The notes beneath the pieces are model-generated. The model did no database searches. It had not been told where the DNA came from and saw nothing but the letters and a program-made list of their open reading frames with translations. A stretch of 64,000 nt of DNA from Hevea brasiliensis (lineage: Eukaryota > Streptophyta > Magnoliopsida > Malpighiales > Euphorbiaceae): positions 40,697,593-40,761,592 of the forward strand of contig NC_079496.1 in the NCBI RefSeq assembly GCF_030052815.1, in the 5' to 3' direction. A program made the position numbers and the translations under genes. Below, one piece after another: positions 35,068 through 61,536 of this stretch; positions within the stretch are counted from its first letter, which is position 1, and the number at the start of each line of letters is the position of its first letter.

Positions 35068-35069
35068 AT

Positions 35070-37575: not shown

Positions 37576-37602
37576 CTAAACAGAAAAGGAAGACTAAAGC
37601 TG

Positions 37603-40347
37603 ATGAAGGCAAAGGAAAGTGTTTCCACTGCCAACAGGAAAGTGTTTCCATTGCCAATAAGAAAGTGTTTCCACTGGCCAGAGTATAGCAATCTAAATGA
37701 AAGCAATGCCGTGGTGAAAAACAACTCAAGTTCAAAATATATTTGGCACTTAAGGTTATGTCATGTTGCAGAAGATAGGATTGCAAAATTGGAGAAAATG
37801 GGGATTCTATCCTCATTGGGCTCTGAGCCTACTCCAACTTGTGAATCTTGCCTTCAAGGCAAAATGACTAGATCACCCTTTGTTGGACAAGGGCTAAGAG
37901 CTGAAAATATTTTTGAACTAATACATAGTGATGTATGTGGTCCGTTTAAAGAAATGGCTAGAGGGGGCTTTTATTATTTTATTACCTTTACTGATGATAA
38001 ATCAAGGTTTGGGTATTTGTATTTGATGAAATACAAACATGAATCCTTTGAAAAGTTTAAGGAATTTAAATCTGAAGTAGAAAATCAAACAGGAAAAAGT
38101 ATTAAAGCTCTTCGATCAGATCGTGGAGGTGAATATTTGAGTACTGAATTTGATGAATACTTGAGAGAGCATGGCATTGTTTCTCAGCTGACTCCTCCAG
38201 GAGCGCCACAGCTGAATGGTGTATCTGAAAGGAGAAATCGTACCCTATTGGATATGGTACGTAGTATGATGAGCTATACTGATATGCCAATCTCCCTTTG
38301 GGGATTTGCATTAGAATTAGCTTTGTATATTCTGAATAGGATTCCATCAAAATCAATTTCTTCCACACCTTATGAGATATGGCATGGAAGAAAACCAAGT
38401 CTTAAGCATGTTAAGATTTGGGATTGTCCAGCTTATGTCAAAAAGTTGAACACTGATAAATTGGAAACCAGATCAGAAAAAGGTCGATTTGTTGGATATC
38501 CAAAAGATAGTTTTGGATATTATTTTTATTTGCCTACTTCACAAAAGGTTGTGATAAGTAGAGATGCCACATTTCTTGAACAACAGTTTGTTCAAGAAGG
38601 AGGCAAAGGAAGGCAAATAGAGTTAGAATTGGAGAATTCTGACCAACCAACAGATCAGATGGATATAGATCCATCTAGTCAACCTATACCCATTGATGAA
38701 ACATCTACAGCTGTTCATCGTAGAACAACAACTGTATCTCACCCACCAGTGAGATATGGTTTTCTTCATGAAGAAGAACAAGAGTTGTCTACTCATGAAG
38801 AAGTAGATCATGGAGATGATCCACTTACCTATGAAGAAGTTATATCAGATATAGACTCTTCAAAATGGATTGACGCTATGAAATCCGAGATTGATTCCAT
38901 GTATAAGAATCAAGTTTGGGATCTTGTTGACCCACCTGAAGGTATTGTACCTATAGGGAACAAATGGGTTTTCAAGAAGAAAATTGGTTCTGATGGAAAG
39001 GTAGAGACCTATAAGGCAAGGCTAGTAGCGAAAGGGTTTCGCCAAAGGCAAGGAATAGACTATGAGGAGACTTTCTGCTTTGTTGCCATGCTTAAATCAA
39101 TTAGGATTTTATTAGCAATAGCTGCATACTATGATTATGAGATTTGGCGGATGGATGTCAAAATGCCTTTCTCAATGGATACATTGAAGAAAACATTTTC
39201 ATGGAACAACCTAAGGGATTTGAATCCCAAGATGGTTCCAAGGTATGCAAGCTAAAGCGATCCATTTATGGGTTGAAACAAGCTTCGAGGAGTTGGAACA
39301 TCCGTTTTGATGAAGCCATTAAATCTTTTGGTTTTATCAAAAATGAGGATGAGCCATGTGTATATAAGAAGGTTAGTGACAGTGCTATCACTTTCCTTGT
39401 CTTATATGTGGATGACATACTGTTGATTGGTAATGACACAGGTATGTTGACAACTATAAAGGTATGGTTGTCAAATACATTCTCCATGAAAGACTTAGGA
39501 AAGGCAACCTATATTCTTGGGATTCGCATTTATAGAGATAGAGCGAAAAGAATAATTGGTTTATCCCAAAGTCTATACTTGGAAAAGGTGTTAAAGAGGT
39601 TTAACATGCTTGATTCCAAGAGAGGATTGTTACCAGTGAGACATGGTATCCACCTTTCTAAAGAGATGTCTCCAAAGACACCTGAAGAAAGAGATAAGAT
39701 GGCCAGGATTCCATATGCTTCGGCTATTGGAAGTTTAATATAGGCAATGTTGTGTACTAGGCCGGATATCGCATATGCTGTTAGTTTGACTAGCAGGTAT
39801 CAATCCAATCCAGGTTTGGAACACTGGATAGCTGTCAAGAATATCCTTAAGTACTTGAGAAGAACTAAGGATTTATTCTTAATTTATGGAGGTGGAGACT
39901 TGCAATTGGATGGTTATACTGATTCTGATTTCCAATCAGATATCGATGACAGAAAGTCTACCTCTGGATATGTGTTCATTTGTAATGGAGGTGCAGTCAG
40001 TTGGAAGAGTTCCAAACAGAGCACGCATCGCAGATTCCACTATCGAGGTCGAGTATATTCTCGCATCGATGCCGCAAAGGAAGTCGCTTTGGATAAAGAA
40101 GTTCGTGACAGAACTTACAGTAGTTCCTTCCATTGAGTCAGCTGTTCTATTACACTGTGACAATAATGGAGCAGTCATATAGGCTAAGGAACCAAGGTCT
40201 CACCAGAAATCCAAACACATAGAAAGGCGCTACCACATTATCAGAGAAATAGTTGGGCGAGGCGATGTATCCATGCAGAAAATAGCATCAGCTGAAAATC
40301 CAGCTGATCCATTCACTAAGCCTATGTCACAGACTCAGTTAGACTGA
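37603..40347 (+). pseudogene. Copia B pol: integrase, RT, RNase H (broken)
   Basis: Open from the 23-bp repeats through integrase (HHCC part 'HLRLCHVAED...CESC', then 'DVCGPF', 'SDRGGEY', 'NGVSERRN') and into RT ('NKWVFKKKIGSDGK') as one frame to 39255. It shifts at about 39160 where an 'aaaacagcc' site reads 'aaaatgcc'. It continues with the YVDD motif ('LYVDDILLIGN') to a TAG at 39741 (Tyr codon TAT to TAG), then RNase H 'DGYTDSDFQSD'. Around 40021-40095 many CTG/CAG sites are scrambled to TCG/CGA and the frame is lost again. The normal end ('SQTQLD', TGA 40345-40347) is present. There is no protease between gag and integrase. Confidence 0.88.
37614..37682 (+). repeat. Three 23-bp tandem repeats at gag-pol junction (B)
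   Basis: Units 37614-37636, 37637-37659 and 37660-37682 of the type GGAAAGTGTTTCCATTGCCA plus ACA, starting inside the zinc-knuckle codons 'KCFHC'. One unit fewer than in C and E, which changes the gag-to-pol phase by one base. Confidence 0.92.
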
Positions 40348-40390
40348 CATCTTGAGAAGATAGGTCTAAGATATTGTAATGAATGGCTCT

Positions 40391-40406
40391 AGTGCTAGTG
40401 GGAGAT
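40391..40406 (+). promoter_or_regulatory. Polypurine tract of copia B
   Basis: AGTGCTAGTGGGAGAT immediately before the 3' LTR start TGTTAG. Confidence 0.85.
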
Positions 40407-42509
40407 TGTTAGTAGTATGCCCTAGAGCATATCATTTAGTATGTATCTTGTATATATTTTTAATAATAAAAGGCATTTCCACTTTTCCGTTTACATAATA
40501 TATTTATGTGTAATAGAAAAGGTCCATTGATATTTTGTTAGAAATATTATTCTTAAGTTGTTAAAAATATGAGTGACAATATTTCTAGCACAAAGTATCA
40601 TAAATAGGTTCACAATCGAGGATACTTCATAATAAGGACATGACTTATCCAGAAAGATTGTATTCATGTTTGTTCCCAAGTTATTTATATGAGATATAAA
40701 TAAGATGGAATGGTGAGTCTCATGCCATATAACAAACATGATAGGCACTTATAAATGATAAGTAGGCCGAACCAGTGACACTTATGACAAGCACATGGAG
40801 TTTACTCTTGTCAATGTTTTGTCATAAATCATATCAGTGCATATAATCTTTAGACTGAGATAGCACAGCTTATCTTGTATATAGGTAGTTTGAGTTTGAT
40901 CTCGCTTTCATACTTGTACTATGTATGGGTATATGGGCATGTGTTGGCTCCTGCTAGTTATATATGGAGGTAGGTGTTGATCAAGATGGAATCTGTTCCT
41001 CTAAGTAAATAGAGATAAAATCCTCTGTTCATTTAATTATTCTTGATATTTTAAGTTCTGGCCAGACAGATAGATTTATTCGTAAAAGAGTTTCGATGAG
41101 AAAAATCTTTTAATCAAGAATTGGAATTAAAAGAGAACATAATATTCATAGCAAATGGAGTTTGACATAAACCATGACTCCAGCTTGAGTTGGGATTTTG
41201 TAACGGAGAGATTCTAGTGCATGGTAACATATGATTATAGGTTCATTTAAGGTAAACCTTATTACTAATTGGGTGGCCATGGCATGCTATGCTAGGTGTT
41301 AACCATGGTCTATGAGGTTCATAAAATGATTTAGAGAAATCATTTATGGTAAGAAAGATTTCTGATGATATTAAGTGTTGATATCATGTATCATTGCCAA
41401 TTAGTGATGAGCCTAGTAAGTCACACACATACACAAGTTATCACCTATTTAAATATGATTTAATTAATTAATTAAAGAGTTTAATTGATTAATTAAATAG
41501 ATTTGGTTTGCAATTAAATTGCAAAGTCCCTAGCATGACTTGAAACCAAATCTAGATTATTGGATGTGTAGTATAAATTAAATTTATATTTAAAGTGTTT
41601 AAATATGAATTTAATTGATGAGAAATTAATTAATAGAGATTAATTAATTAATTTATATTTGATATAAATTAATTAGAAGAAGAAAATAATTATTTTGGGT
41701 TAAGAACTCAAAATTAAGACACAGGGGCATTTTGGTCATTTCAAATTGTGACATGTGTCACCATGAGATGGTGACACATGGCATAACACATAAGCTTGCC
41801 AAATATTTTTAATCATGTAAGATGATTAAAATCAAGATTAAATATAGGTTTGACACTTGGCACAATGTGATTGGGTCACTTAAACCTAGAGCTAATCAAA
41901 AGGTGACATGTGGCTAGGGTTTAATGTGTTAACCTAGCTATTTAAGTGTGGTTATGAAAAGAAAACATAACCAGCAGCCTCTCTTCTCAATTGTCACGCC
42001 ACTTTGAGCCTCTCCAGCTATTTCTTTTCATCTCTCATCAATTCAAAGAGATTAGCCATCAATCTCTTGAATTAAGAACACTAGAAATTGTTTCTAGTGT
42101 CCTGTTTACATCTCTAATCTCTTAAATGGCAGAACTTGAATTTCTAATTAATATAAAAGGCTTTAGAAGCTGTTCAAGGGCTGCCATAGGTGTTCTTGGT
42201 GTGGACAAGCTAGAGGGACAACATCTGGTGTCCTGAAGACGAATCTCAAAGGCGCAGACACGCTGTAGCACATCAAGAGGTTAGTGTAATCGTTCTTGAT
42301 TTAATCTAGGGTTCTAAAATTAATCTGATTAATTTTAAAATCTTAAATGGCAAATACAGATCCAAAAACATATTAAAAGAGTTTTAATATGTTGTTTATC
42401 ATTGAAATCAAATAGATAAAAATAAATCTTGCATGGTACATGTGACCCTAGGTGAAAATTTTTGAATTCAATGGTATAATCTTGTATTTTTCACGCTTCC
42501 GTTCCTTCA
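40407..42509 (+). repeat. 3' LTR of copia B
   Basis: 2103 bp. The differences from the 5' LTR are few and mostly at CTG/CAG or CCTGG/CCAGG sites, apart from a cluster at 41742-41758. Antisense 85-codon ORF at 40491-40748. Confidence 0.93.
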
Positions 42510-43309: not shown

Positions 43310-43314
43310 GCAAG

Positions 43315-43769: not shown

Positions 43770-45870
43770 TGTTAGTAGTATGCCCTAGAGCATATCATTT
43801 AGTATGTATCTTGTATATATTTTATTAATAAAAGGCATTTCCACTTTTCCGTTTACATAATATATTTATGTGTAATAGAAAAGGTCCATTGATATTTTGT
43901 TAGAAATATTATTCTTAAGTTGTTAAGAATATGAGTGACAATATTTCTAGCACAAAGTATCATAAATAGGTTCACAATCGAGGATACTTCATAATAAGGA
44001 CATGACTTATCCAGAAAGATTGTATTCATGTTTGTTCCCAAGTTATTTATATGAGATATAAATAAGATGGAATGGTGAGTCTCATGCCATATAACAAACA
44101 TGATAGGCACTTATAAATGATAAGTAGGCCGAACCAGTGACACTTATGACAAGCACATGGAGTTTACTCTTGTCAATGTTTTGTCATAAATCATATCGAT
44201 GCATATAATCTTTAGACACGAGATAGCAGCTTATCTTGTATATAGGTAGTTTGAGTTTGATACTGCTTTCATACTTGTACTATGTATGGGTATATGGGCA
44301 TGTGTTGGCTCCTGCTAGTTATATATGGAGGTAGGTGTTGATCAAGAAGGAATCTGTTCCTCTAAGTAAATAGAGATAAAATCCTATGTTCATTTAATTG
44401 TTCTTGATGTTTCAAGTTCCTGGCCAGGACAGATAGATTTATTCATAAAAGAGTTTCGATGAGAAAATCTTTTAATCAAGAACTGGAATAAAAAGAGAAC
44501 ATAATATTCATAGCAAATGGAGTTTGACATAAACAATGACTCAAGATTGAGTTGGGATTTTGTAACAGAGAGATTCTAGTGCATGGTAACATATGATTAT
44601 AGGTTCATTTAAGGTAATTCTTATTACTAATTGGGTGGCCATGGCATGCTATGCTAGGTGTTAACCATGGTTTATGAGGTTCATAAAATGATTTAGAGAA
44701 ATCATTTATGGTAAGAAAGAGTTCTGATGATTTTAAGATTTGATATCATGTCTCATTGCCAATTAGTGATGAGCCTAGTAAGTCACACACATACACAAGT
44801 TATCACCTATTTAAATATGATTTAATTAATTAATTAAAGAGTTTAATTGATTAATTAAATAGTTTTGGTTTGCAATTAAATTGCAAAGTCTCTAGCATGA
44901 CTTGAAACCAAATCTAGATTATTGGATGTGTAGTATAAATTAAATTTATATTTAAAGTGTTTAAATATGAATTTAATTGATGAGAAATTAATTAATAGAG
45001 ATTAATTAATTAATTTATATTTGATATAAATTAATTAGAAGAAGAAAATAATTATTTTGGGTTAAGAACTCAAAATTAAGACACAGGGGCATTTTGGTCA
45101 TTTTGCAGTGTGACACGTGGCACCATGAGATGGTGACACATGGCATAACACATAAGCTTGCCAAATATTTTTAATCATGTAAGATGATTAAAATCAAGAT
45201 TAAATATAGGTTTGACACTTGGCACAATGTGATTGGGTCACTTAAACCTAGAGCTAATCAAAAGGTGACATGTGGCTAGGGTTTAATGTGTTAACCTAGC
45301 TATTTAAGTGTGGTTATGAAAAGAAAACATAACCAGCAGCCTCTCCTCTCAATTGTCACGCCACTTTGAGCCTCTCCAGCTATTTCTCTTCATCTCTCAT
45401 CAATTCAAAGAGATTAGCCATCAATCTCTTGAATTAAGAACACTAGAAATTGTTTCTAGTGTCCTGTTTGCATCTTTAATCTCTTAAAAGGCAGAACTTG
45501 AATTTCTAATTAATAGAAAAGGCTTTAGAAGCTGTTCAAGGGCTGCCATAGGTGTTCTTGGTGTGGACAAGCTAGAGGGACAACATTTGGTGTCCTGAAG
45601 ACGAATCTCAAAGGCGCAGACACGCCGCAAAGACATCAAGAGGTTAGTGTAATCGTTCTTGATTTAATCTAGGGTTCTAAAATTAATCTGATTAATTTTA
45701 AAATCTTAAATGGCAAATACAGATCCAAAAACATATTAAAAGAGTTTTAATATGTTGTTTATCATTGAAATCAAATAGATAAAAATAAATCTTGCATGGT
45801 GCATGTGACCCTAGGTGAAAATTTTTGAATTCAATGGTATAATCTTGTGTTTTTCACGCCTGTTCCTTCA
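43770..45870 (+). repeat. 5' LTR of copia C
   Basis: TGTTAG...CCTTCA. CACGTG at 45114-45119 lies about 185 bp upstream of the TATTTAAG at 45301-45308. Antisense 85-codon ORF at 43853-44110. Confidence 0.93.
45114..45142 (+). promoter_or_regulatory. G-box inside an imperfect hairpin in the copia LTR
   Basis: CACGTGGCACCAT and ATGGTGACACATG, separated by GAG, form an imperfect inverted repeat. CACGTGGC matches the plant G-box/ABRE core. The same block occurs in the C 3' LTR (about 52563) and E LTR (about 58150). It is altered in B: CTCGTG in the 5' LTR, and a perfect 13-bp hairpin without CACGTG in the 3' LTR. Confidence 0.5.
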
Positions 45871-45871
45871 A

Positions 45872-45885
45872 TTGGTATCGAGCCA
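45872..45885 (+). promoter_or_regulatory. Primer-binding site of copia C
   Basis: Reads TGGTATCGAGCCAC, where the family has TGGTATCAGAGCCA. One base is missing at a CAG site, which may be a consensus error and not a real loss. Confidence 0.75.
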
Positions 45886-47651
45886 CTATATTTGCCATTT
45901 AGATTGTTGATTATATAATTTAATTGTGTGTTTGATCATGAGATCAAGAGATTCATTGCTGGTTGGATCATGAGATGTGGCGTCACACATGGAGAAGCCA
46001 CCATTGGTGGCGGCAACAATGGTTCCATGGGTGGTTCAAGATTTGGCTTTTAATTCTGCAATTGTTGTATGATCTAAGGCCTATTCTTTGACTAATTAAA
46101 GTTTTTAATTAGTTGTTTTAATCACACAATTAAATTATGATTCAAATCAGAATTTTAAAAAATGTTTGAATGTGATTCAAATCTGAATTTTAAAAGTTGT
46201 TTGAATGAGATTCAAATCTGAATTTTTAAAGTTGTTTGAATCATATTTAAATCTGATTTTTTAAAATTGATTCAATAAAATTCAGATCTGATTTTTTAAA
46301 AAATATTTGAATGTGATTCAAATCTGATTTTTTAAAAAATGTTTGAATGTGATTCAAATATGAATTTTTGAAGTTGTTTGAATGTGATTCAAATCTGAAT
46401 TTTTAAATTTGTTTGAATGAGATTCAAATCTGAATTTTTAAATTTATTTGAATCATATTCAAATCTGGAATTTTAAGTTGAATATGAGATATTCAATTTA
46501 ATTTAAGAATGTATGTTTTATTTAATTGTTAAATAGTGATATGCATGATGGATGATCATGGACTATAAAAGACCAATGTGATTGGATTTATTTCTTTTAT
46601 GTTTCTTTGGGATTGTAAATTAATTAATTTATTTTAATTTATTTTGGGCATGTATTATTAAGTTTGTAATAATTTTGGGTTGTAATTTCATTTATTTAAG
46701 TTCTTGTAAATTCCTTGGTATGCCAAGGATTACTATGTAATATTGGATTGCAAGAAGTTCAAGGAGGTCAAGAGCATTGGTGGGACCAGTGGGAGGAATT
46801 CAATATCAAGTGTTGATTATGTACTCCTTCAGCAACTCTTGTAAAATGAATGAATGAAATGCACCTAGGAATGCCCTGATTCAATTCTTGGTGGCTCAAT
46901 TGAATCCCTTAGAAAGTCCATGATCATACCATATTTATCGCTTATCCATGAATGCATGAGATGTATGGGAATGTATGCAATTATATGATATATGCATGCT
47001 AAATGGATAATGTGCAAAGTGAGACCTTAATAGTAATTAGGATGGCTATAAAATCTTCCAAACAAATGATTAAGTTGGAAATGGTATAATTAAAGTAATT
47101 ATAACATAAGCCCTCCATTGGGGCAATTATTTTAAGAAATTTTAAATAGTTGCATGAGATACAATTAATTTAAGAGATTTTCTTAAGAATAATTGTTAAG
47201 CATGAGATGTTGTAAATATGTAAATGGTTTGGTGGCCAATATTGGATGTACCTGAGGACATTAAAATTATTTGCATAATTACTGGCTCAATGGGATCAAC
47301 TTAACTAATGCAAGATAAGTCAATATTGGATGTACCTGAGATTTTGAGCATTAGGGGCTAGTAAAAGGATTGAACCTCACATGAGATGTGATGGGCAAGG
47401 AGTTGCTCACTTATAGTTTATTGTAATTCCAATAATGGATGTACCTGAGGATGATCAATAGAATTATAAGAATTCAATCACCCATTAGAAATCCATCCAA
47501 CTAGGATTTCCGTTTTCTACTTTGGAAGTGTAGGATTCGCTAAGTTAGTGGGAGGACCAATTTGATTAAAAGACCATAATCATTTTGGTTAATTACATGA
47601 TACATTTACTAATTAATCTGGTTATTTTCTGCAGTTAATTTTTTGATAAAA
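45886..47651 (+). other. 5' leader of copia C
   Basis: Same layout as in B: minisatellite 46136-46473 and the three GGATGTACCTGAG motifs at about 47242, 47326 and 47436. No gene is seen. Confidence 0.75.
46136..46473 (+). repeat. Leader minisatellite of copia C
   Basis: Homologous to the array in B, with small unit-level differences. Confidence 0.8.
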
Positions 47652-48377
47652 ATGAGCACAAAACAACCACCACCATCCAATATCCTTGCAAGCATACTTG
47701 ATCACAACAGGTTGACAGGACCTAATCTGTCTGATTAGCTAAGAAATTTGAAACTTGTCTTGAACCTTGAACATATAGGATATGTTCTAGATTCAAATGT
47801 TCCTGGTCCCTTACCTCCAGAGGCCATACAAGAGGAACATGATACTTTGGACAAGTGGAAGGAGCATGATATGAGAGCTAAGTGTTACATGCTTGCTTCC
47901 ATGAGTAATGAGTTACAGAAGCAACATGAGAACATGCAGAGTGCTAGTGAGATCCTCCTTCACCTACAAGAGTTGTATGGTGAGCACAGCAGGAATGCTA
48001 GGTATGAGATATCTAAACAGTTATTCCGTATGAGGATATCTGAGGGACAGAATGTTGGGGATCATGTCCACAAGATGATTCGGCTGATTGAGCAGTTGGA
48101 ACATCTTGACTTCAACATGGATTTCCAACTACAAACGGATTTGATCCTTCAGTCCCTTCCTGAGTTTTTTGGGAATTTTGTGACAAATTTCCATATGACT
48201 AAACAGGAATGCACCTTAGCTGAATTACTCAACATGCTGGTTATTGCCCAAAAGAATATGCTGTGCAATAAAGGAAAAGAGGTAGTTTGGTTGCATCTTC
48301 TTCTACTGGAAAGTCCAACAAGAAGAAGGGCAATAAGAAAAAGAAACCTCAGATTCCTGGTCCTTCCAAGAAAATAG
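47652..48377 (+). pseudogene. Copia C gag (in-frame stop, frameshift)
   Basis: ATG at 47652 ('MSTKQPPPSN'). A TAG at 47736-47738 replaces the Trp of 'SDWLRN'. Downstream the capsid region is open in the same frame from 47748. A base is missing at about 48286 ('gtagtttgg' against 'gtagctttgg'), after which the true Gag C-terminus (Lys-rich, 'GPSKKIAKQKRKTK') continues in the frame that begins at 48287. Confidence 0.87.
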
Positions 48378-49331
48378 CTAAACAGAAAAGGAAGACTAAA
48401 GCTGATAAAGGCAAAGGAAAGTGTTTCCACTGCCAACAGGAAAGTGTTTCCATTGCCAACAGGAAAGTGTTTCCATTGCCAGTAAGAAAGTGTTTCCACT
48501 GGCCAGAGTATAGCAATCTAAATGAATACAATGCCATGGTGAAAACCAACTCAAGTTCAAAATATATTTGGCACTTAAGGTTATGTCATGTTGCAGAAGA
48601 TAGGATTGCAAAATTGGAGAAAATGGGGATTCTATCCTCATTGGGCTCTGAGCCTACTCCAACTTGTGAATCTTGCCTTCAAGGCAAAATGACTAGATCA
48701 CCCTTTGTTGGACAAGGGCTAAGAGCTGAAAATATTTTGGAACTAATACATAGTGATGTATGTGGTCCGTTTAAAGAAATGGCTAGAGGGGGCTTTCATT
48801 ATTTTATTACCTTTACTGATGATAAATCAAGGTTTGGGTATTTGTATTTGATGAAATACAAACATGAATCCTTTGAAAAGTTCAAAGAATTTAAATCTGA
48901 AGTAGAAAATCAAACAGGAAAAAATATTAAAGCTCTTCAATCTATCGTGGAGGTGAATATTTGAGTACTGAATTTGATGAATACTTGAGAGAGCATGGCA
49001 TTGTTTCTCAGCTGACTCCTCCAGGAACGCCACAACTGAATGGTGTATCTGAAAGGAGAAATCGTACCCTATTGGATATGGTACGTAGTATGATGAGCTA
49101 TACTGATATGCCAATCTCCTTTTGGGGATTTGCATTAGAATCGACTTTATATATTCGAATAGGATTCCATCAAAATCGCTTTCTTCCACACCTTATGAGA
49201 TATGGCATGGAAGAAAACCAAGTCTTAAGCATGTTAAGATTTGGGGTTGTCCAAATTTATATCAAAAAGTGAACAACGATAAATTGGAGACCAGGATCGT
49301 AAAAAGGTCGATTTGTTGGATATCAAAATGA
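48287..49331 (+). pseudogene. Copia C gag C-terminus to integrase (protease absent)
   Basis: From 48287 one frame reads the Gag basic tail, 'GKCFHCQQ', the translated 23-bp repeats, then 'LNEYNAMVKTNSSSKYIWHLRLCHVAED' of the pre-integrase domain. So in C the four repeats join gag to pol in frame. It continues through the HHCC Cys pair ('CESC') and the first Asp ('DVCGPF') to 48964. The frame is lost at about 48935, where 'cgatcagatcgtgg' reads 'caatctatcgtgg'. The integrase resumes at 48961 ('STEFDEYL', 'NGVSERRN') and shifts again near 49155 and 49265. The second catalytic Asp falls at the first break. Confidence 0.87.
48416..48507 (+). repeat. Four 23-bp tandem repeats at gag-pol junction (C)
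   Basis: Units start at 48416, 48439, 48462 and 48485. Because 23 is not a multiple of three, successive units are read as 'KCFHCQQE', 'SVSIANR', 'KVFPLPVR' and 'KCFHWPEY'. Three extra units (69 bp) restore the phase. Confidence 0.93.
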
Positions 49332-49477
49332 TAGTTTTGGATATTATTTTTATTTGCCTACTTCACAAAAGGTTGTGATAAGTAGACATGCCACATTTCT
49401 TGAACAGTTTGTTCAAGAAGGAGGCAAAGGAAGGCAAATAGAGTTAGAATTAGAGAATTCGACCAACCAATGCATCG

Positions 49478-51166
49478 ATGGATATAGATCCATCTAGTCA
49501 ACCTATACCCATTGATGAAACATCTACACTGCTTCCTCGTAGAACAAACATGGTATCTCACCCACCAGTGAGATATGGTTTTCTTCATGAAGAAGAACAA
49601 GAGTTGTCTACTCATGAAGAAGTAGATCATGGAGATGATCCACTTACCTATGAAGAAGCTCTATCAGATCTAGACTCTTCAAAATGGATTGATGCTATGA
49701 AATCCGAGATTGATTCCATGTATAAGAATCAAGTTTGGGATCTTGTTGACCCACCTAAAGGTATTGTACCTATAGGGAACAAATGGGTTTTCAAGAAGAA
49801 AATTGGTTCTGATGGAAAGGTAGAGACCTATAAGGCAAGGCTAGTAGCGAAGGGGTTTCGCCAAAGGCAAGGAATAGACTATGAGGAGACTTTCTACTTT
49901 GTTGCCATGCTTAAATCAATTAGGATTTTATTAACAATAGCTGCATACTATGATTATGAGATTTGGCAGATGGATGTCAAAACAGCCTTTCTTAATGGAT
50001 ACATTGAAGAAAACATTTTCATGGAACAACCTAAGGGATTTGAATCCCAAGATGGTTCCAAGGTATGCAAGCTAAAGCGATCCATTTATGGGTTGAAACA
50101 AGCTTCGAGGAGTTGGAACATCCGTTTTGATGAAGCCATTAAATCTTTTGGTTTTATCAAAAATGAGGATGAGCCATGTGTATATAAGAAGGTTAGTGAC
50201 AGTGCTATCACTTTCCTTGTCTTATATGTGGATGACATACTGTTGATGGGTAATGATACAGGTATGTTGACGACTATAAAGGTATGGTTGTCAAATACAT
50301 TCTCCATGAAAGACTTAGGGGAGGCAACCTATATTCTTGGAATTCGCATCTATAGAGATAGAGCGAAAAGAATAATTGGTTTATCCCAAAGTCTATACTT
50401 GGAAAAGGTGTTAAAGAGGTTTAACATGCTTGATTCCAAGAGAGGATTGTTACCAGTGAGACATGGTATCCACCTTTCTAAAGAGATGTCTCCAAAGACA
50501 CCTAAAGAAAGAGATAAGATGGTCAGGATTCCATATGCTTCGGCTATTGGAAGTTTAATGTATGCAATGTTGTGTACTAGGTCGGATATCGCATATGCTG
50601 TTAGTTTGACTAGCAGGTATCAATCCAATCCAGGTTTGGAACACTGGATAGCTGTCAAGAATATTCTTAAGTACTTAAGAAGAACTAAGGATTTATTCTT
50701 GATTTATGGAGGTGGAGACTTGCAATTGGATGGTTATACTGATTCTGATTTCCAATCAGATATCGATGATAGAAAGTCTACCTCTGGATATGTGTTCATT
50801 TGTAATGGAGGTGCAGTCTGTTGGAAGTGTTCCAAACCGAGCACGACTGCAGATTCCACTACTGAGGCTGAGTATATTGCTGCATCAGATGCTGCAAAAG
50901 AAGCTGTTTGGATAAAGAAGTTCATGACAGAACTTACAGTAGTTCCTTCCATTGAGTCAGCAGTTCCATTACACTGTGACAACAATGGAGCAGTCATACA
51001 GGCTAAGGAACTAAGGTCTCACCCAAAATCCAAACACATAGAAAGGCACTACCACATTATCAGAGAAATAGTTGGGCAAGGCAATATAGCCATGCAGAAA
51101 ATAGCATCAGCTGAAAATCCAGCTGATTCATTCACTAAGCCTTTGTCACAAGCTCAGTTAGACTGA
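49478..51166 (+). CDS. Copia C reverse transcriptase and RNase H (open)
   Basis: 562 open codons ending at the family stop (TGA 51164-51166). The first 60 or so residues are the acidic linker after integrase ('MDIDPSSQPIPIDE'), and the ATG there is internal to the polyprotein, not a true start. The RT region has 'NKWVFKKKIGSDGK', 'MDVKTAFLNGYIEENIFMEQP', 'YGLKQASRSWN' and the active-site 'LYVDDILLMGN'. The RNase H region has 'DGYTDSDFQSDIDDRKSTSGY', 'TTEAEYIAA', 'CDNNGAV' and 'HYHIIREIV'. Cys replaces Trp/Ser in 'AVCWKCSK' against 'AVSWKSSK'. It would copy RNA to DNA in the particle, but it lies in an element without protease and downstream of breaks. Confidence 0.85.
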   Translation: MDIDPSSQPIPIDETSTLLPRRTNMVSHPPVRYGFLHEEEQELSTHEEVDHGDDPLTYEEALSDLDSSKWIDAMKSEIDSMYKNQVWDLVDPPKGIVPIGNKWVFKKKIGSDGKVETYKARLVAKGFRQRQGIDYEETFYFVAMLKSIRILLTIAAYYDYEIWQMDVKTAFLNGYIEENIFMEQPKGFESQDGSKVCKLKRSIYGLKQASRSWNIRFDEAIKSFGFIKNEDEPCVYKKVSDSAITFLVLYVDDILLMGNDTGMLTTIKVWLSNTFSMKDLGEATYILGIRIYRDRAKRIIGLSQSLYLEKVLKRFNMLDSKRGLLPVRHGIHLSKEMSPKTPKERDKMVRIPYASAIGSLMYAMLCTRSDIAYAVSLTSRYQSNPGLEHWIAVKNILKYLRRTKDLFLIYGGGDLQLDGYTDSDFQSDIDDRKSTSGYVFICNGGAVCWKCSKPSTTADSTTEAEYIAASDAAKEAVWIKKFMTELTVVPSIESAVPLHCDNNGAVIQAKELRSHPKSKHIERHYHIIREIVGQGNIAMQKIASAENPADSFTKPLSQAQLD

Positions 51167-51225
51167 CATCTTGAGAAGATGGGTCTAAGGTATTGTAATG
51201 AATGGCTCTAGTGCTAGTGGGAGAT

Positions 51226-53323
51226 TGTTAGTAGTATGCCCTAGAGCATATCATTTAGTATGTATCTTGTATATATTTTATTAATAAAAGGCATTTCCAC
51301 TTTTCCGTTTACATAATATATTTATGTGTAATAGAAAAGGTCCATTGATATTTTGTTAGAAATATTATTCTTAAGTTGTTAAGAATATGAGTGACAATAT
51401 TTCTAGCACAAAGTATCATAAATAGGTTCACAATCGAGGATACTTCATAATAAGGACATGACTTATCCAGAAAGATTGTATTCATGTTTGTTCCCAAGTT
51501 ATTTATATGAGATATAAATAAGATGGAATGGTGAGTCTCATGCCATATAACAAACATGATAGGCACTTATAAATGATAAGTAGGTCAACCAGTGACACTT
51601 ATGACAAGCACATGGAGTTTACTCTTGTCAATGTTTTGTCATAAATCATATCAGTGCATATAATCTTTAGACTGAGATAGCACGCTTATCTTGTATATAG
51701 GTAGTTTGAGTTTGATCTGCTTTCATACTTGTACTATGTATGGGTATATGGGCATGTGTTGGCTCTCGCTAGTTATATATGGAGGTAGGTGTTGATCAAG
51801 AAGGAATCTGTTCCTCTAAGTAAATAGAGATAAAATCCTATGTTCATTTAATTGTTCTTGATGTTTCAAGTTCTGGCCAGACAGATAGATTTATTCGTAA
51901 AAGAGTTTACGATGAGAAAATCTTTTAATCAAGAACTGAATTAAAAGAGAACATAATATTCATAGCAAATGGAGTTTGACATAAACCATGACTCCGGCTT
52001 GAGTTGGGATTTTGTAATGAGAGATTCTAGTGCATGGTAACATATGATTATAGGTTCATTTAAGGTAATTCTTATTACTAATTGGGTGGCCATGGCATGC
52101 TATGCTAGGTGTTAACCATGGTTTATGAGGTTCATAAAATGATTTAGAGAAATCATTTATGGTAAGAAAGAGTTCTGATGATATTAAGAGTTGATATCAT
52201 GTCTCATTGCCAATTAGTGATGAGCCTAGTAAGTCACACACATACACAAGTTATCACCTATTTAAATATGATTTAATTAATTAATTAAAGAGTTTAATTG
52301 ATTAATTAAATAGATTTGGTTTGCAATTAAATTGCAAAGTCCCTAGCATGACTTGAAACCAAATCTAGATTATTGGATGTGTAGTATAAATTAAATTTAT
52401 ATTTAAAGTGTTTAAATATGAATTTAATTGATGAGAAATTAATTAATAGAGATTAATTAATTAATTTATATTTGATATAAATTAATTAGAAGAAGAAAAT
52501 AATTATTTTGGGTTAAGAACTCAAAATTAAGACACAGGGGCATTTTGGTCATTTTGCAGTGTGACACGTGGCACCATGAGATGGTGACACATGGCATAAC
52601 ACATAAGCTTGCCAAATATTTTTTAATCATGTAAGATGATTAAAATCAAGATTAAATATAGGTTTGACACTTGGCACAATGTGATTGGGTCACTTAAACC
52701 TAGAGCTAATCAAAAGGTGACATGTGGCTAGGGTTTAATGTGTTAACCTAGCTATTTAAGTGTGGTTATGAAAAGAAAACATAACCAGCAGCCTCTCCTC
52801 TCAATTGTCACGCCACTTTGAGCCTCTCCAGCTATTTCTCTTCATCTCTCATCAATTCAAAGAGATTAGCCATCAATCTCTTGAATTAAGAACACTAGAA
52901 ATTGTTTCTAGTGTCCTGTTTGCATCTTTAATCTCTTAAAAGGCAGAACTTGAATTTCTAATTAATAGAAAAGGCTTTAGAAGCTTTTCAAGGGCTGCCA
53001 TAGGTGTTCTTGGTGTGGACAAGCTAGAGGGACAACATTTGGTGTCCTGAAGACGAATCTCAAAGGCGCAGACACGCTGCAGCACATCAAGAGGTTAGTG
53101 TAATCGTTCTTGATTTAATCTAGGGTTCTAAAATTAATCTGATTAATTTTAAAATCTTAAATGGCAAATACAGATCCAAAAACATATTAAAAGAGTTTTA
53201 ATATGTTGTTTATCATTGAAATCAAATAGATAAAAATAAATCTTGCATGGTGCATGTGACCCTAGGTGAAAATTTTTGAATTCAATGGTATAATCTTGTG
53301 TTTTTCACGCTTCCGTTCCTTCA
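51226..53323 (+). repeat. 3' LTR of copia C
   Basis: 2098 bp, preceded by the polypurine tract at 51210-51225. Antisense 85-codon ORF at 51309-51566. Several CTG/CAG sites differ from the 5' LTR. Confidence 0.93.
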
Positions 53324-53328
53324 ATCAT

Positions 53329-56300
53329 ACCTGTGTCATTACCCATCAACAATATATCATCCACATATAAGAAAAGGAAAGTGATAGCATTGTCACTAAC
53401 CTTCTTATATACAAATGGCTCATCCTCATTTTTGATAAAACCAAACGATTTAATGGCTTCATCAAAACGGATGTTCCAACTCCTCAAAGCATGTTTCAAC
53501 CAATAAATGGATCGCTTTAGCTTGCATACCTTGGAACCATCTTGGGATTCAAAACCCCTAGGTTGTTCCATGAAAATGTTTTCTTCAATGTATCCATTGA
53601 GAAAAGCTGTTTTGACATCCATCTGCCAAATCTCATAATCATAGTATGCAGCTATTGCTAATAGAATCCTAATTGATTTAAGCATGGCAAAAGGTGAGAA
53701 AGTCTCCTTATAGTCGATTCCTTGCCTTTGGCGAAACCCTTTCACTACTAGCCTTGCCTTGTAGGTCTCTACCTTTCCATCAGAACCAATTTTCTTCTTG
53801 AAAACCCATTTGTACCTTATAGGTACAATACCTTCAGGTCGGTCAACAAGATCCCAAACTTGATTCTTATACATGCAATCAATTTCGGATTTCATAGCAT
53901 CAATCCATTTTGAAGAGTCTATATCTAATATAGCCTCTTCATAGGTAAGTGGATCATCTCTATGATCTACTTCTTCATGAGTAAACAACTCTTGCTCTTC
54001 TTCATAAAGGAAACCATATCTCATTGGTGGGTGAGATACCCTGGTTGTTCTACGAGGAATAGCTGTAGATGTTTCATCAATGGGTGTAGGTTGACTAGAT
54101 GGATCTATATCCATCTGATCTGTTAGTTGGTCAGAATTCTCCAATTCCAACTCTATTGGCTTTCCTTTGCCTCCTTCTTGAACAAACTGTTGTTCAAGAA
54201 ATGTGGCATCTCTACTTATCACAACCTTTTGTGAAGTAGGCAAATAAAAAAAAATATCCAAAACTATCTTTTGGATATCCAACAAATCGACCTTTTTTTG
54301 ATCTGGTTTCCAATTTATCAGTGTTCAACTTTTTGACATAAGCTGGACAATCCCAAATCTTAACATGCTTAAGACTTGGTTTTCTTCCATGCCATATCTC
54401 ATAAGGTGTGGAAGAAATTGATTTTGATGGAATCCTATTCAGAATATACAAAGCTAATTCTAATGCAAATCCCCAAAAGGAGATTGGCATATCAGTATAG
54501 CTCATCATACTACGTACCATATCCAATAGGGTACGATTTCTCCTTTCAGATACACCATTCACCTGTGGCGTTCCTGGAGGAGTCAGCTAGAAAACAATGC
54601 CATGCTCTCTCAAGTATTCATCAAATTCAGTACTCAAATATTCACATCCACGATCTGATTGAAGAGCTTTAATACTCTTTCCTGTTTGATTTTCTACTTC
54701 AGATTTAAATTCTTTGAACTTTTCAAAGGATTCATGTTTGTATTTCATCAAATACAAATACCCAAACCTTGATTTATCATCAGTAAAGGTAATAAAATAA
54801 TGAAAACCGCCTCTAGCTATTTCCTTAAATGGACCACATACATCACTATGTATTAGCTCCAAAATATTTTCAGCTCTTAGCCCTTGTCCAACAAAGGGTG
54901 ATCTAGTCATTTTGCCCTGAAGGCAAGATTCACAAGTTGGAGTAGGCTCAGAGCCCAATGAGGATAGAATCCCCATTCTCTCTAATTTTGCAATCCTATC
55001 TTCTACAACATGACATAAACTTAAGTGCCAAATATATTTTGAACTTGACTTGTTTTTCACCATGGCATTGCATTCATTTAGATCACTTGCATTCATTTTG
55101 TGTTTGTCATTATTATCCAAATAATAAATACCATTATTTATATAACTCGAACCAACATATTTATTTCCAAAATAAATATTACAAACATCATCTGTGAGCT
55201 GAAATTCATAGCCATTTCTAGTGAAACTAGAGATAGAAATGATGTTCTTAAAAGCATCGGGTACATATAAAATATTATCCAAACATAAAACATGTCCTGA
55301 CATGTAAAAAGATTTAGATCCCATGGCTAAAGCTTCAACAATTGAGCCATTGCCAATCCGGAGTCTAACATATCGAGAATGCAAACTGCTACTATTTGTT
55401 AGTTCCTGCATATCATTAGAAATGTGAGAACTGGCACCAGTATCTAAAACCTAAGCTGTAGATGAACTATGAGTATCATCAGAATCTAAATAACAAGATA
55501 TGGACATACCTTTCGAAGGTGTATCCTTCTTGTCCTTCAGAGAAGCAAGATACTTTGGGTAGTTCCTTTTCCAGTGCCCATCCTTCTGGCAATGGAAACA
55601 CTTTCCTTTACCTCCATCAGCTTTAGTCTTCCCTTTCTGTTTAGCTATTTTCTTAGAAGGACCAGGAATCTGAGGTTTCTTTTTCTTATTTCCCTTCTTC
55701 TTTTTGGACTTTCCAGCAGAAGAAAATGCAATCAAAGCAACCTCTTTTCCTTTATTGCCTGGCATATTCTTTTGGGCAATAACCAACATGTTGAGTAAAC
55801 TAGCTAAGGTGCATTCCTATTTAGTCATATGGAAATTTGTTACAAAATTCCCAAAAGACTCAGGAAGGGACTGAAGGATCAAATCCGTCTGTAGTTGGAA
55901 ATCCATGTTGAAATCAAGATGTTCCAACTGCTCAATCAACCGAATCATCTTTTGGACATCATCTCCAATATTTTGCCCCTCAGACATCCTCATGCGGAAC
56001 AGCTACCTAGATATCTCATACCTAGCATTCCTACTGTGCTCACCATACAATTCTTGTAGGTGAAAGAGGATCTCACTCGCACTCTGCATGTTCTCATATT
56101 GCTTCTGTAACTCATTACTCATGGAAGCAAGCATGAAACACTTAGCTCTCATATCATGCACCTTCCACTTGTCCAAAGTTTCATGTTCCTCTTGAGTGGC
56201 CTCTGGAGGTAAGGGACCAGGAACATTTAAATCTAGAACATATCCTATATGTTCAAGGTTCAGGACAAGTTTCAAATTTCTTTGCTAATCAGACAGATTA

Positions 56301-56371
56301 GGTCCTGTCAACTTATTGTGATCAAATATGCTTGCAAGGATATTGGATGGTGGTGGTTGTTCTGTGCTCAT
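53329..56371 (-). pseudogene. Copia D gag-pol: gag, protease, integrase, RT N-terminal part
   Basis: Read from ATG 56371 ('MSTEQPPPSN'). Gag has Trp-to-TAG in 'SDWLRN' (about 56285) and Gln-to-TAG (about 56003). The zinc knuckle is 'CFHCQKDGHWKRNY' (last Cys lost). The protease region carries a canonical 'VLDTGASSHIS' at about 55410-55440, just after a Trp-to-TAG. The HHCC domain and integrase core run in open pieces 55411-54587 and 54562-54212, with 'SDRGCEYL' at the second Asp. A shift follows at about 54245 (extra A in 'aaaaaaaata'), then RT to 'LYVDDILLMGND', where C interrupts. D thus preserves the protease that B, C and E lack, though with stops. Confidence 0.87.
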
Positions 56372-56804
56372 TATTATCAGAAAATTAACTGCAGAAAATA
56401 ACCAGATTAATTAGTAAATGTATCATGTAATTAACCAAAATGATTATGGTCTTTTAATCAAATTGGTTATCCCACTAACTTAGCGAATCCTACACTTCCA
56501 AAGTAGAAAATGGAAATCCTAGTTGGATGGATTTGTAGTGGATGATTGAATTCTTATAATTCTATTGATCATCCTCAGGTACATCCATTATTGGAATTAC
56601 AATAAACTATAAGTGAGCAACTCCTTGCCCATCGCATCTCATGTGAGGTTCAATCCTTTACCTAGCCCCTAATGCTCAAAATCTTAGGTACATCCATTAT
56701 TGACTTATCTTGCATTAGTTAAGTTGATCCCATTGAGCCAGTAATTATGCAAATAATTTTAATGTCCTTAATATTAGCCACCAAACCATTTACATATTTA
56801 CAAC
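56372..56804 (-). other. Part of the 5' leader of copia D
   Basis: Non-coding leader sequence directly upstream of the D gag. It holds two GGTACATCC motif copies (about 56576 and 56689), plus a degenerate third at about 56770 where 'cctcaggtacatccaatattgg' is shortened to 'ccttaatattag'. E interrupts it at 56805, before the minisatellite. Confidence 0.75.
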
Positions 56805-58909
56805 TGTTAGTAGTATGCCCTAGAGCATATCATTTAGTATGTATCTTGTACATATTTTATTAATAAATGGCATTTCCACTTTTCTGTTTATATAATATAT
56901 TTATGTGTAATAGAAAAGGTCCATTGATATTTTGTTAGAAATATTATTCTTAAGTTGTTAAGAATATGAGTGACAATATTTCTAGCACAAAGTATCATAA
57001 ATAGGTTCACAATCGAGGATACTTCATAATAAGGACATGACTTATCCAGAAAGATTGTATTCATGTTTGTTCCCAAGTTATTTATATGAGATATAAATAA
57101 GATGGAATGGTGAGTCTCATGCCATATAACAAACATGATAGGCACTTATAAATGATAAGTAGGCCGAACCAGTGACACTTATAACAAGCACATGGAGTTT
57201 ACTCTTGTCAATGTTTTGTCATAAATCATATCAGTTCATATAATCTTTAGACCTGAGATAGCATAGTTATCTTGTATATAGGTAGTTTGAGTTTGATACT
57301 GCTTTCATACTTGTACTGTGTATGGGTATATGGGCATGTGTTGGCTCCTACTAGTTATATATGGAGGTAGGTGTTGATCAAGATGGAATCTGTTCCTCTA
57401 AGTAAATAGAGATAAAATCCTATGTTCATTTAATTGTTATTGATGTTTCAAGTTCCTGGCCAGGACAGATAGATTTATTCAGAAAAGAGTTTCTGATGAG
57501 AAAATCTTTTTAATCAAGAACTGGAATTAAAAGAGAACATAATATTCATAGCAAATGGAGTTTGACATAAACCATGACTCCAGCTTGAGTTGGGATTTTG
57601 TAACAGAGAGATTCTAGTGCATGGTAACATATGATTATAGGTTCATTTAAGGTAAACCTTATTACTAATTGGGTGGCCATGGCATGCTATGCTAGGTGTT
57701 AACCATGGTCTATGAGATTCATAAAATGATTTAGAGAAATCATTTATGGTAAGAAAGAGTTCTGATGATATTAAGAGTTGATATCATGTCTCATTGCCAA
57801 TTAGTGATGAGCCTAATAAGTCATACACATACACAAGTTATCACCTAATTAAATATGATTTAATTAATTAATTAAAGAGTTTAATTGATTAATTAAATAG
57901 GTTTGGTTTGCAATTAAATTGCAATGTCCCTAGCATGACTTGAAACCAAATCTAGATTATTGATGTGTAGTATAAATTAAATTTATATTTAAAGTGTTTA
58001 AATATGAATTTAATTAATGAGAAATTAATTAATAGAGATTAATTAATTAATTTATATTTGATATAAATTAATTAGAAGAAGAAAAATAATTATTTTGGGT
58101 TGAGAACTCAAAATTAAGACACAAGGGCATTTTGGTCATTTTGCAGTGTGACACGTGGCACCATGAGATGGTGACACATTGGATCACACATAAGCTTGCC
58201 AAATGTTTTTTAATCATGTAAGATGATTAAAATCAAGATTAAATATAGGTTTGACACTTGGCACAATGTGATTGGGTCACTTAAACCTAGAGCTAATCAA
58301 AGGGTGACATGTGGCAAGGGTTTAATGTGTTAACCTAGCTATTTAAGTGTTGTTATGAGAAAACAAAATATAACCAGCAGCCACACTCCTTTGTCACGCC
58401 ACTTTGTGGGTTTTTATCTCTTCTTCTTCATCTCTTATCAATTCAAAGAGATTAGCCATCAATCTCTTGAATTAAGAACACTAGAAATTGTTTCTAGTGT
58501 CCTGTTTACATCTCTAATCTCTTAAAAGGCAGAACTTGAATTTCTAATTAATAGAAAAAGCTTTAGAAGCTATTCAAGGGCTGCCATAGGTGTTCTTGGT
58601 GTGGACAAGCTAGAGGGACAACATCTGGTGTCCTGAAGACGAATCTCAAAGGCGCAGACACGCTGCAGTGCATCAAGAGGTTAATGTAATCGTTCTTGAT
58701 TTTATCTAGGGTTCTAAAATTAATCTGGTTAATTTTAAAATCTTAAATGGCAAATACAGAACCAAAAACATATTAAAAGAGTTTTAATATGTTGTTTATC
58801 ATTGAAATCAAATAGATAAAAATAAATCTTGCATGATGCATGTGACCCTAGGTGGAAATTTTTGAATTCAATGGTATAAACTTGTGTTTTTCACGCTTCC
58901 GTTCCTTCA
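56805..58909 (+). repeat. 5' LTR of copia E
   Basis: 2105 bp. TATTTAAG at 58340-58347, CACGTG near 58151, antisense 85-codon ORF at 56888-57145. Confidence 0.92.
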
Positions 58910-58910
58910 A

Positions 58911-58924
58911 TTGGTATCAGAGCC
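58911..58924 (+). promoter_or_regulatory. Primer-binding site of copia E
   Basis: TGGTATCAGAGCCA right after the LTR, the initiator-Met tRNA primer site. Confidence 0.9.
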
Positions 58925-60679
58925 ACTATATTTGCCATTCAGATTGATGTTTATATGATTTAATTGTGTGTTTGATCATGAGATCAAGAGTTTATTGCTG
59001 GTTGCAAAGTCAAAGTGGCGGCACAAATGATGAACACCATGGTGTGCATGGTTGATGCATCACAATGGTGTGCAAAGGTAAATGGATGGTGAATGTGCAA
59101 TTGTTGTATGATTTAAAATCCATTTTATGTCTAATTAAATTGTTTAATTAGAATTTTTATCACACAATTAAATTATGATTCAAATCAGAATTTTAAAAAT
59201 TGTTTGAATGTGATTCAAATCTGAATTTTAAAAGTTGTTTGAATGTGATTCAAATCTGAATTTTTAAAGTTGTTTGAATCATATTTAAATCTGATTTTTT
59301 AAAATTGATTGAATAAAATTCAGATCTGATTTTTTAAAAAATATTTGAATGTGATTCAAATCTGATTTTTTAAAAAATGTTTGAATGTGATTCAAATCTG
59401 AATTTTTAAAGTTGTTTAAATGTGATTTTTTAAATTTGTTTGAATGAGATTCAAATCTGAATTTTTAAATTTATTTGAATCATATTCAAATCTGAATTTT
59501 TAAGTTGAATATGAGATATTCAATTTAATTTAAGTATGTATGTTTTATTTAATTGTTAAATAGTGATATGCATGATGGATGATCATGGACTATAAAAGAC
59601 CAATGTGATTGGATTTATTTCTTTTATGTTTCTTTGGGATTGTAAATAAATTAATTTATTTTAATTTATTTTGGGCATGTATTATTAAGTTTGTAATAAT
59701 TTTTGGGTTGTAATTTCATTTATTTAAGTTCTTGTAAATTTTCCTTGGTATGCCAAGGATTACTATGTAATATTGGATTGCAAGAAGTTCAAGGAGGTCA
59801 AGAGCATTGGTGGGACCAGTGGGAGGAATTCAAGATCAAGTGTTGATTATGTACTCCTTCAGCAACTCTTGTAAAATGAATGAATGAAATGCACCTAGAA
59901 TGCCCGATTCAATTCTTGGTGGCTCAATTGAATCCCTTAGAAAGTCCATGATCATACCATATTTCTCGCTTATCCATGAATGCATGAGATGTATGGGAAT
60001 GTATGCAATTATATGATATATGCATGCTAAATGGATAATGTGCAAAGTGAGACCTTAATAGTAAATAGAATGACCATAAAATCTTCCAAACAAATGTTTA
60101 AGTTGGAAATGCTATAATTAAAGTAATTATAACATAGGCCCTCCATTAGGGCAATTATTTTAAGAAATTTTAAATAGTTGCATAAGATGCAATTTATTTA
60201 AGAGATTTTCTTAAGAATAATTGTTAAGCATGAGATGTTGTAAATATGTAAATGGTTTGGTGGCCAATATTGGATGTACCTGAGGACATTAAAATTATTT
60301 GCATAATTACTGGCTCAATGGGATCAACTTAACTAATGCAAGATAAGTCAATAATGGATGTACCTGAGTTTTTGAGAATTAGGGGGTAGGTAAAGGATTG
60401 AACCTAACATGAGATGTGATGGGCAAAGAGTTGCTCACTTATAGTTTATTGTAATTCCAATAATGGATGTACCTGAGGATGATCAATAGAATTATAAGAA
60501 TTCAATCACCCACTAGAAATCCATCCAACTAGGATTTCCGTTTTCTACTTTGGAAGTGTAGGATTCGCTAAGTTAGTGGGAGGACCAATTTGATTAAAAG
60601 ACCATAATCAATTTGGTTAATTACATGATACATTTACTAATTAATCTGGTTACTTTCTGCAGTTAATTTTCTGATAAAA
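58925..60679 (+). other. 5' leader of copia E
   Basis: Minisatellite at 59175-59500 and three GGATGTACCTGAG motifs at about 60269, 60354 and 60464. The segment 58990-59110 differs from B and C ('ttgcaaagtcaaagtggcggc' against 'ttggatcatgagatgtggcg'), so the first part of the leader is diverged or replaced. No gene is seen. Confidence 0.7.
59175..59500 (+). repeat. Leader minisatellite of copia E
   Basis: Homologous array. One unit is shortened near 59415-59435 compared with B and C. Confidence 0.8.
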
Positions 60680-61445
60680 ATGATCACAAAACAACCACCA
60701 CCATCCAATATCCTTGCAAGCATACTTGATCACAATAGGTTGACTGGACCTGATCTGTCTGATTGGCTAAGAAATTTGAAACTTGTCCTGAACCTTGAAC
60801 ATATAGGATATGTTCTAGATTCAAATGTTCCTGGTCCCTTACCTCCAGAGGCCACACAAGAGGAACATGAAACTTTGGACAAGTGGAAGGAGCATGATAT
60901 GAGAGCTAAGTGTTACATGCTTGCTTCCATGAGTAATGAGTTACAGAAGCAACATGAGAACATGCAGAGTGCGAGTGAGATCCTCCTTCACCTACAAGAG
61001 TTGTATGGTGAGCACAACAGGAATGCTAGGTATGAGATATCTAGGCAGCTGTTCCGCATGAGGATGTTTGAGGGACAGAATGTTGGGGATCATGTCCACA
61101 AGATGATTCGGCTGATTGAGCAGTTGGAATATCTTGACTTCAACATGGATTTCCAACTATAGACGGATTTGATCCTTCAGTCCCTTCCTTGGTCTTTTGG
61201 GAAATTTTGTGACAAATTTCCATATGACTCAACAGGAATGCACCTTAGCTGGTTTACTCAACATGCTGGTTATTGCCTAAAAGAATATGCCAGGCAATAA
61301 AGGAAAAGAGGTAGCTTTGGTTGCATCTTCTTCTGCTGGAAAGTCCAACAAGAAGAAGGGCAATAAGAAAAAGAAACTTCAGATTCCTGGTCCTTCTAAG
61401 AAAATAGCTAAACAGAAAAGGAAGACTAAAGCTGATGAAGGCAAA
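60680..61445 (+). pseudogene. Copia E gag (stops and frameshift)
   Basis: ATG at 60680 ('MITKQPPPSN'; others have MST). The N-terminus is intact in E alone among the young copies, including 'LSDWLRNLK'. The capsid region is open to TAG at 61160-61162 (Gln to stop in 'DFQLQTD'). An extra A at about 61203 shifts the frame, and a TAA replaces Gln in 'VIAQKN' at about 61277. From 61287 the basic tail ('GPSKKIAKQKRKTK') is open up to the repeat array. Confidence 0.86.
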
Positions 61446-61536
61446 GGAAAGTGTTCCACTGCCAACAGGAAAGTGTTTCCATTGCCAATAGGAAAGTGTT
61501 TCCATTTCCAGTAAGAAAGTGTTTCCACTGGCCAGA
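61446..61536 (+). repeat. Four 23-bp tandem repeats at gag-pol junction (E)
   Basis: Units start at 61446, 61468, 61491 and 61514. The first has lost one T and is 22 bp, which throws gag and pol out of phase although the unit number matches C. Confidence 0.92.

Follow-up and report, generated by a model that had tools for sequence, protein, structure and literature searches.

How can a retrotransposon without a protease of its own reach thousands of copies in a plant genome? The question is raised by a 64,000-nucleotide stretch of Hevea brasiliensis contig NC_079496.1 (the window), in which one copia family with long terminal repeats (LTRs) is present as five copies, A to E. What is missing from copies B, C and E begins at the zinc knuckle, takes in the aspartic protease and extends to the pre-integrase domain; all three share an identical junction beside 23-bp repeats. 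Our analysis indicates that they very probably belong to a large non-autonomous long-LTR Ty1/copia subfamily mobilised in trans, in which the 23-bp array is most likely a slippage scar.

Measured from an anchor ahead of the knuckle, the integrase start is 624 bp away in both A and D, 178 bp in B, 201 bp in C and 200 bp in E. The net loss is 446 bp in B, 423 bp in C and 424 bp in E, or 492 bp (164 codons) when reckoned with a single repeat unit. It removes the latter half of the zinc knuckle together with the protease and the sequence leading into the integrase; gag, integrase and reverse transcriptase sequences are kept. The protease profile Pol_BBD was present in the tested open reading frames (ORFs) of A and D and absent from those of B and C, where gag_pre-integrs begins at profile position 8. 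The initial annotation had described a loss of about 0.5 kb as a derived change common to B, C and E and absent from A and D, and junction, Pfam matches and anchor lengths all bear this out. Pfam matches in the B and C ORFs comprise the copia-type domains Retrotran_gag_2, gag_pre-integrs, rve and RVT_2, which follow one another in this order along B. The aspartic protease that typifies Ty1/copia elements between Gag and integrase is missing, which makes the subfamily a derived non-autonomous member. Splicing was considered as the origin of the deletion and rejected, as the scar retains a GTAT that a 5′ splice site at this place would have removed.

The three deleted copies sit in different surroundings. 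B is inserted in another repeat, of which an uninterrupted relative lies at 23214-26769, and has a perfect target-site duplication (TSD), TTTTA, on both flanks (32957-32961 and 42510-42514), whereas C and E interrupt D at two different points. From these differing targets, flanks and TSDs we conclude that B, C and E are separate insertions. LTR pairs were identified in B and C, with Kimura two-parameter (K2P) distances of 0.0130 and 0.0125. The primer site TGGTATCAGAGC follows the 5′ LTR in B and E, and the version in C is one base short. Neither protease-bearing copy of the window is likely to be a source of protease, because the active-site motif of A reads DTS instead of DTG and a stop codon immediately precedes the DTG motif of D. 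Coordinates of all these features can be found in Table 1.

Copy number was estimated by searching the 1.88 Gb genome for 24-base words with at most one mismatch; the reversed-word control gave 0 matches for each word. The deletion-junction word was found at 3,532 places, the protease-core word at 5,752, and an integrase-start word common to both classes at 15,045. Five places with the shared word and neither class word were read individually: three were deleted copies with a mutated junction, one was a decayed protease structure and one carried unrelated upstream sequence. The class counts are therefore lower bounds, and the copy-number comparison proposed in the initial annotation gives at least 3,532 deleted and at least 5,752 protease-bearing copies.

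The comparison of insertion ages proposed with it shows the sampled deleted copies to be the younger. Both samples were exact word matches: 20 of the first 22 places on one contig (C1) for the deleted class, and the first 20 places for the protease-bearing class. L020 and L024 were left out of the former because a downstream anchor was missing and a tandem neighbour probable. About 900 bp of the two LTRs were compared. Median K2P divergence was 0.0170 (0.0067-0.0347) in the 18 of 20 deleted copies that could be dated and 0.0332 (0.0192-0.0703) in the 12 of 20 datable protease-bearing copies (Mann-Whitney, P 0.00076), and 10 of the 18 deleted copies lie below the youngest of the 12. With the plant substitution rate of 1.3e-8 quoted in a passage of PMC9744471, a rate that is not Hevea-specific, these medians correspond to about 0.65 and about 1.3 million years.

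In a midpoint-rooted LTR tree of 43 rows, from which the deleted copy L029 was omitted as too short, all 22 deleted and 8 of the 21 protease-bearing rows fall into one branch (SH-like approximate likelihood ratio test, 98), the other 13 protease-bearing rows lying outside. Scaled from these 8 of 21 rows, a small sample, about 2,200 protease-bearing copies would share this branch. The gag tree contained 40 deleted rows (L001 and C are the same locus, and L001-L008 were chosen by likeness to C) and 13 protease-bearing rows. The class label changes 3 times on the gag tree (shuffled mean 11.8) and 5 times on the integrase tree (mean 11.8), where 3 of the changes are forced by strongly supported branches. 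The protease-bearing copies L045 and L049 sit among deleted rows on the gag, integrase and LTR trees alike. We read these trees as suggesting that the deletion arose inside one LTR subfamily that still holds protease-bearing copies, with exchange between copies. Open protease stretches do still exist: the knuckle-to-integrase stretch was read in 13 protease-bearing copies of the genome, selected by an exact match to a DTG word, and in 3 of them it is stop-free in the protease frame (L039, L041 and L049, the last with a 1-bp length difference). In two further copies, L029 and L053, the integrase segment is strongly diverged and the two sit together on a long branch; they are either chimaeric copies or members of a related family.

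Exchange is also apparent from linkage disequilibrium in the deleted set (48 of 53 rows; L020, L024, L029, L038 and L071 were omitted as rearranged or probable tandem partners). Mean r2 is 0.167 at distances below 50 bp and drops to about 0.05 past 150 bp, the shuffled value being 0.023; joint copying of RNAs from different copies would lead one to expect such a decay. Some copies are also physically joined. L037 and L160 are preceded by the polypurine end of another copy, for L068 a primer site then follows, and the members of the pairs L023/L024 and L037/L038 are spaced about one element apart. All of these are probably LTR-sharing tandems produced by unequal recombination.

The unit of the array at the scar is 23 bp long (AGGAAAGTGTTTCCACTGCCAAC). 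It folds into a hairpin of -8.6 kcal/mol (z -2.1; 8 of 200 shuffles were equally good). In D the word AGGA repeats 23 bp downstream, and A reads AAGA at that place. The units hold the spacer between the two AGGA words, which suggests that the array formed before or together with the deletion. Most likely, to judge from these sequences, it is the scar left when a small hairpin within the knuckle region was miscopied. A 21-base unit word gave no match in viral and genome contig collections, the latter of which may omit the genome of the window itself.

Does the number of units matter for the element? The initial annotation had proposed that four units in C fuse gag to integrase, that three units in B or a 22-bp unit in E change the phase, and that unit number modulo three thereby decides whether Pol is fused to Gag. 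The phase changes are confirmed, the arrays of B and E both being out of frame, and the arithmetic holds: one and four units are in frame, the other numbers are not. The fusion in C stands as a local reading without a stop through the array, but gag is shifted by a 1-bp deletion about 130 bp upstream of it. B likewise carries a 1-bp deletion within an A-run ahead of its array, and none of B, C and E has an unbroken gag-to-integrase frame. Unit number was scored by anchor-to-junction length in the first 90 of 100 listed junction places. A length of 109 (four units) was found in 50 of the 90, 86 (three) in 25, 63 (two) in 4, 132 (five) in 2 and 40 (one) in 2, with 7 irregular; counting by core match in the same sample gave one unit in 4, two in 5, three in 28, four in 51 and five in 2. 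Across the array itself, as distinct from frames further upstream, 52 of 90 copies are in frame and 38 out (L184 was judged out of frame by its sequence), and 49 of 90 are stop-free within the array; 3 of the 50 four-unit arrays contain a stop. Gag would end at VFPLARV or earlier with three units, at ESVSTGQSIAI or earlier with two, and within the array with five.

In some cases the same out-of-frame array is present at different sites. Three-unit arrays occur in several sublineages, and the sister three-unit copies L011 and L018 have different flanks (TCCCA/GCCCA for L011, no matching duplication for L018). L064 and L068 share the same unusual out-of-frame array behind different 5′ flanks; L064 has a clean TSD, GGGAG, and the 3′ side of L068 continues into another copy, so that recombination is possible for this pair. 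Keeping the array in frame is apparently no requirement for copying. The functional role proposed for unit number is not supported, given the gag frameshift in C, the 38 of 90 arrays out of frame and the recurrence of the same out-of-frame arrays at different sites. On the trees, the four-unit label is clustered for gag (11 changes against 16.5 on average in shuffles, with 1 of 500 shuffles as low) and weakly so for gag and integrase combined (12 against 15.7, 17/500). The three-unit label is not clustered (10 against 11.8, 51/500, and 11 against 11.0, 340/500). When only three- and four-unit rows were kept, dropping 5 odd rows, changes were within the shuffles (9 against a mean of 10.6 for gag, 9 against 10.5 for integrase, 10 against 10.6 for both). 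In a cross-check of gag against integrase trees, single-nucleotide polymorphisms (SNPs) of similar frequency scatter like unit number (0.77 and 0.83 changes per minor row, compared with 9/12 for units). Tree tests of unit number are therefore mixed, in a population that recombines, and in-frame lineages may persist mildly better.

These observations can be brought together as follows. The deletion would have occurred once, in one ancestor within one LTR lineage, and this ancestor would have kept multiplying. Its RNA, sharing LTR lineage and primer site with protease-bearing copies, may be packaged together with protease-bearing RNA and matured by the protease of the latter. The array would have been born by slippage or template switching at the hairpin or the AGGA words, with units gained and, more often, lost, the change of frame being a side effect. 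A single deleted ancestor that went on multiplying, probably with the protease of a relative, was already suggested in the initial annotation, and is supported by the junction at 3,532 places, the younger LTRs and the shared LTR branch. The deletion could instead have been spread into pre-existing copies by gene conversion or unequal recombination, and not by transposition of deleted RNA. Copies do recombine strongly, and LTR-sharing tandems exist (L037, L160, L068), but converted old copies would match the protease-bearing class in LTR age, whereas sampled deleted copies show about half its divergence, and B combines a perfect TSD with 1.3% LTR divergence; we regard this route as unlikely. 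Segmental duplication of one deleted insertion, or a set of independent deletions, is extremely improbable. Likeness between copies is all that speaks for duplication, together with the C1 neighbours L023/L024 and L037/L038, which are probably tandem complexes. Against it, the repeat that received B is not the one that received C and E, these two entered D at separate points, and the flanks differ; the single identical junction, found also in thousands of genomic copies, shows that the endpoints are not independent.

A further alternative gives repeat number the role of a functional switch, one or four units producing a Gag-Pol fusion and three ending Gag after VFPLARV, so that the mix of copies would set the Gag to Gag-Pol ratio. 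The frame arithmetic, the predominance of four units followed by three, and the clustering of the four-unit label on the gag tree beside a scattered three-unit label, as if in-frame sources out-reproduced the others, all fit such a switch. It is nonetheless quite improbable, given three-unit arrays in several sublineages, clustering that stays within the shuffles when only three- and four-unit rows are compared, SNPs that scatter equally, stops in some four-unit arrays, and gag frames in B and C that are broken upstream of the array. In its boldest form, to which we give equally little credence, the slipping array would be a heritable phase switch at the population level, four- and one-unit copies making a Gag-integrase-reverse transcriptase fusion devoid of its own protease and three-unit copies Gag only. 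If this were true, both particle parts would come from the protease-less pool, slippage determining their ratio, and the pool would drain the protease of the helper, and this drain might account for the greater age of the sampled protease-bearing copies.

Some results weigh against the explanation preferred here. Protease-bearing words outnumber deleted ones, both counts being lower bounds. The 23-bp step implies that duplication preceded or accompanied the deletion, yet a search with a 38-base word, allowing up to 3 mismatches, yielded no intermediate in which the unit is doubled and the knuckle still whole, the 2 matches both running on as an array. Finally, before filtering, nonsynonymous/synonymous counts among variants present in at least 4 deleted copies are 20/27 in gag, against 130/42 among singletons (P 3e-5), and 36/28 in integrase, against 248/71 (P 0.0009). 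Some selection on gag and integrase of the deleted class is therefore possible. Once sites were removed where the same pair of alleles also occurs in protease-bearing copies, a filter that reduces power, the counts became 13/7 against 107/29 for gag and 19/9 against 205/59 for integrase (P 0.25 each). Filtered variants indistinguishable from singletons are expected if the proteins of the deleted class are dispensable. In protease-bearing copies, variants present in at least 4 copies give 2/17 for gag (13 copies) and 8/11 for integrase (12 copies). We read this, at low power, as a sign that gag is strongly constrained in the protease-bearing class, and that variation private to the deleted class is under little or no constraint.

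Among plant elements, LARD and TRIM are mobilised in trans and have no coding domains; the Hevea subfamily differs from them in retaining gag, integrase and reverse transcriptase sequence, as judged by Pfam. Its nearest known counterpart is BARE2 of barley, described in passages of PMC3735527 as a Ty1/copia subfamily that lacks Gag, having lost the Gag start codon by an 8-bp deletion, and that is packaged by BARE1. As far as those passages go, the two cases have in common a conserved deletion that removes one essential protein while most coding and LTR signals are kept, with persistence through a sister subfamily; the Hevea copies display one coding deletion over many insertions and an LTR lineage shared with domain-keeping copies. 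Unlike BARE2, they have lost the protease and half of the knuckle (net 0.42-0.49 kb) and carry a tandem array at the scar, and trans packaging, demonstrated for BARE2, is proposed for the Hevea subfamily. In wheat, passages of PMC9744471 describe RLG_Sabrina, RLG_WHAM and the non-autonomous half of RLC_Angela as high-copy non- or semi-autonomous LTR subfamilies beside autonomous ones. According to the same passages, Gag-protease is retained in long Sabrina elements, from which reverse transcriptase and integrase are absent (the opposite of the Hevea case), WHAM likewise lacks reverse transcriptase and integrase, and the coding sequence of non-autonomous Angela is highly degenerate. A survey of Hevea transposons reports recent Ty1/copia insertions (PMC7353026); its available passages describe no such subfamily and contain neither "protease" nor "non-autonomous". 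Neither a protease-deleted plant LTR subfamily nor this Hevea family was found in the literature searched, a search that was not exhaustive and does not prove absence from print. The subfamily offers a test, set up by nature, of which retrotransposon functions have to be provided in cis, and its success suggests that protease can be shared between copies. Its scar is a one-word marker with which parasite and helper could be counted, dated and typed for expression over Hevea accessions. In a crop genome where the copies number thousands, one could then test how parasitic copies overtake their autonomous parents.

Table 1. Positions in the window of the five copia copies and of their main features.
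Feature	Position	Strand	Remarks
Element A, protease-bearing structure	1454..10805 (about)	-	active-site motif DTS
A: protease core	6592..6616	-	word match
Element B, protease-deleted copia copy	32962..42509	+	LTRs 32962-35067 and 40407-42509
B: ORF	37603..39255	+	array tail, gag_pre-integrs (from profile position 8), rve, SH3, RVT_2 start; without Pol_BBD
B: 23-bp array	37613..37675	+	3 units, out of frame relative to the array of C; tandem repeat and frame reading
B: deletion-junction word common to the subfamily	37676..37699	+	word match
Element C, protease-deleted copy, inserted in D	43770..53323	+	flanking 5-mers AACAT / ATCAT (4/5 bases)
C: main gag ORF	47748-48377	+	frame differs from fused ORF 48287-48964
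C: open stretch, gag tail to array to pre-integrase domain	48287..48964	+	ORF and Pfam
C: 23-bp array	48415..48500	+	4 units, frame continuous from gag tail to integrase; tandem repeat and frame reading
Element D, protease-bearing structure	53324..56804 and 43310-43769	-	split by C and E
D: protease core (DTGAS)	55426..55450	-	word match
Element E, protease-deleted copy, inserted in D	56805..64000	+	continues past window end; left border alone inside window
E: 23-bp array	61445..61529	+	4 units, first 22 bp, out of frame; tandem repeat and frame reading
35-bp repeat arrays	B 35336-35675; C 46139-46476; E 59176-59500; A 8715-9021	B +	tandem repeat

No Rfam match at the gathering threshold and no tRNA gene was found in the window. 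In A, B, C and E, 8.7 to 9.6 copies of a 35-bp repeat are arrayed between the 5′ LTR and gag. Amid other repeats of the window, an ORF of 238 amino acids at 27144-27860 on the minus strand has a translation that resembles a gypsy-type integrase. Two short database contigs assigned to Escherichia coli (C5P41_24865, 2,583 bp, and C5P36_26520, 592 bp) encode pieces of the copia element at 97-98% identity, and C5P36_26520 contains the four-unit array; both are probably plant DNA contaminating bacterial drafts.

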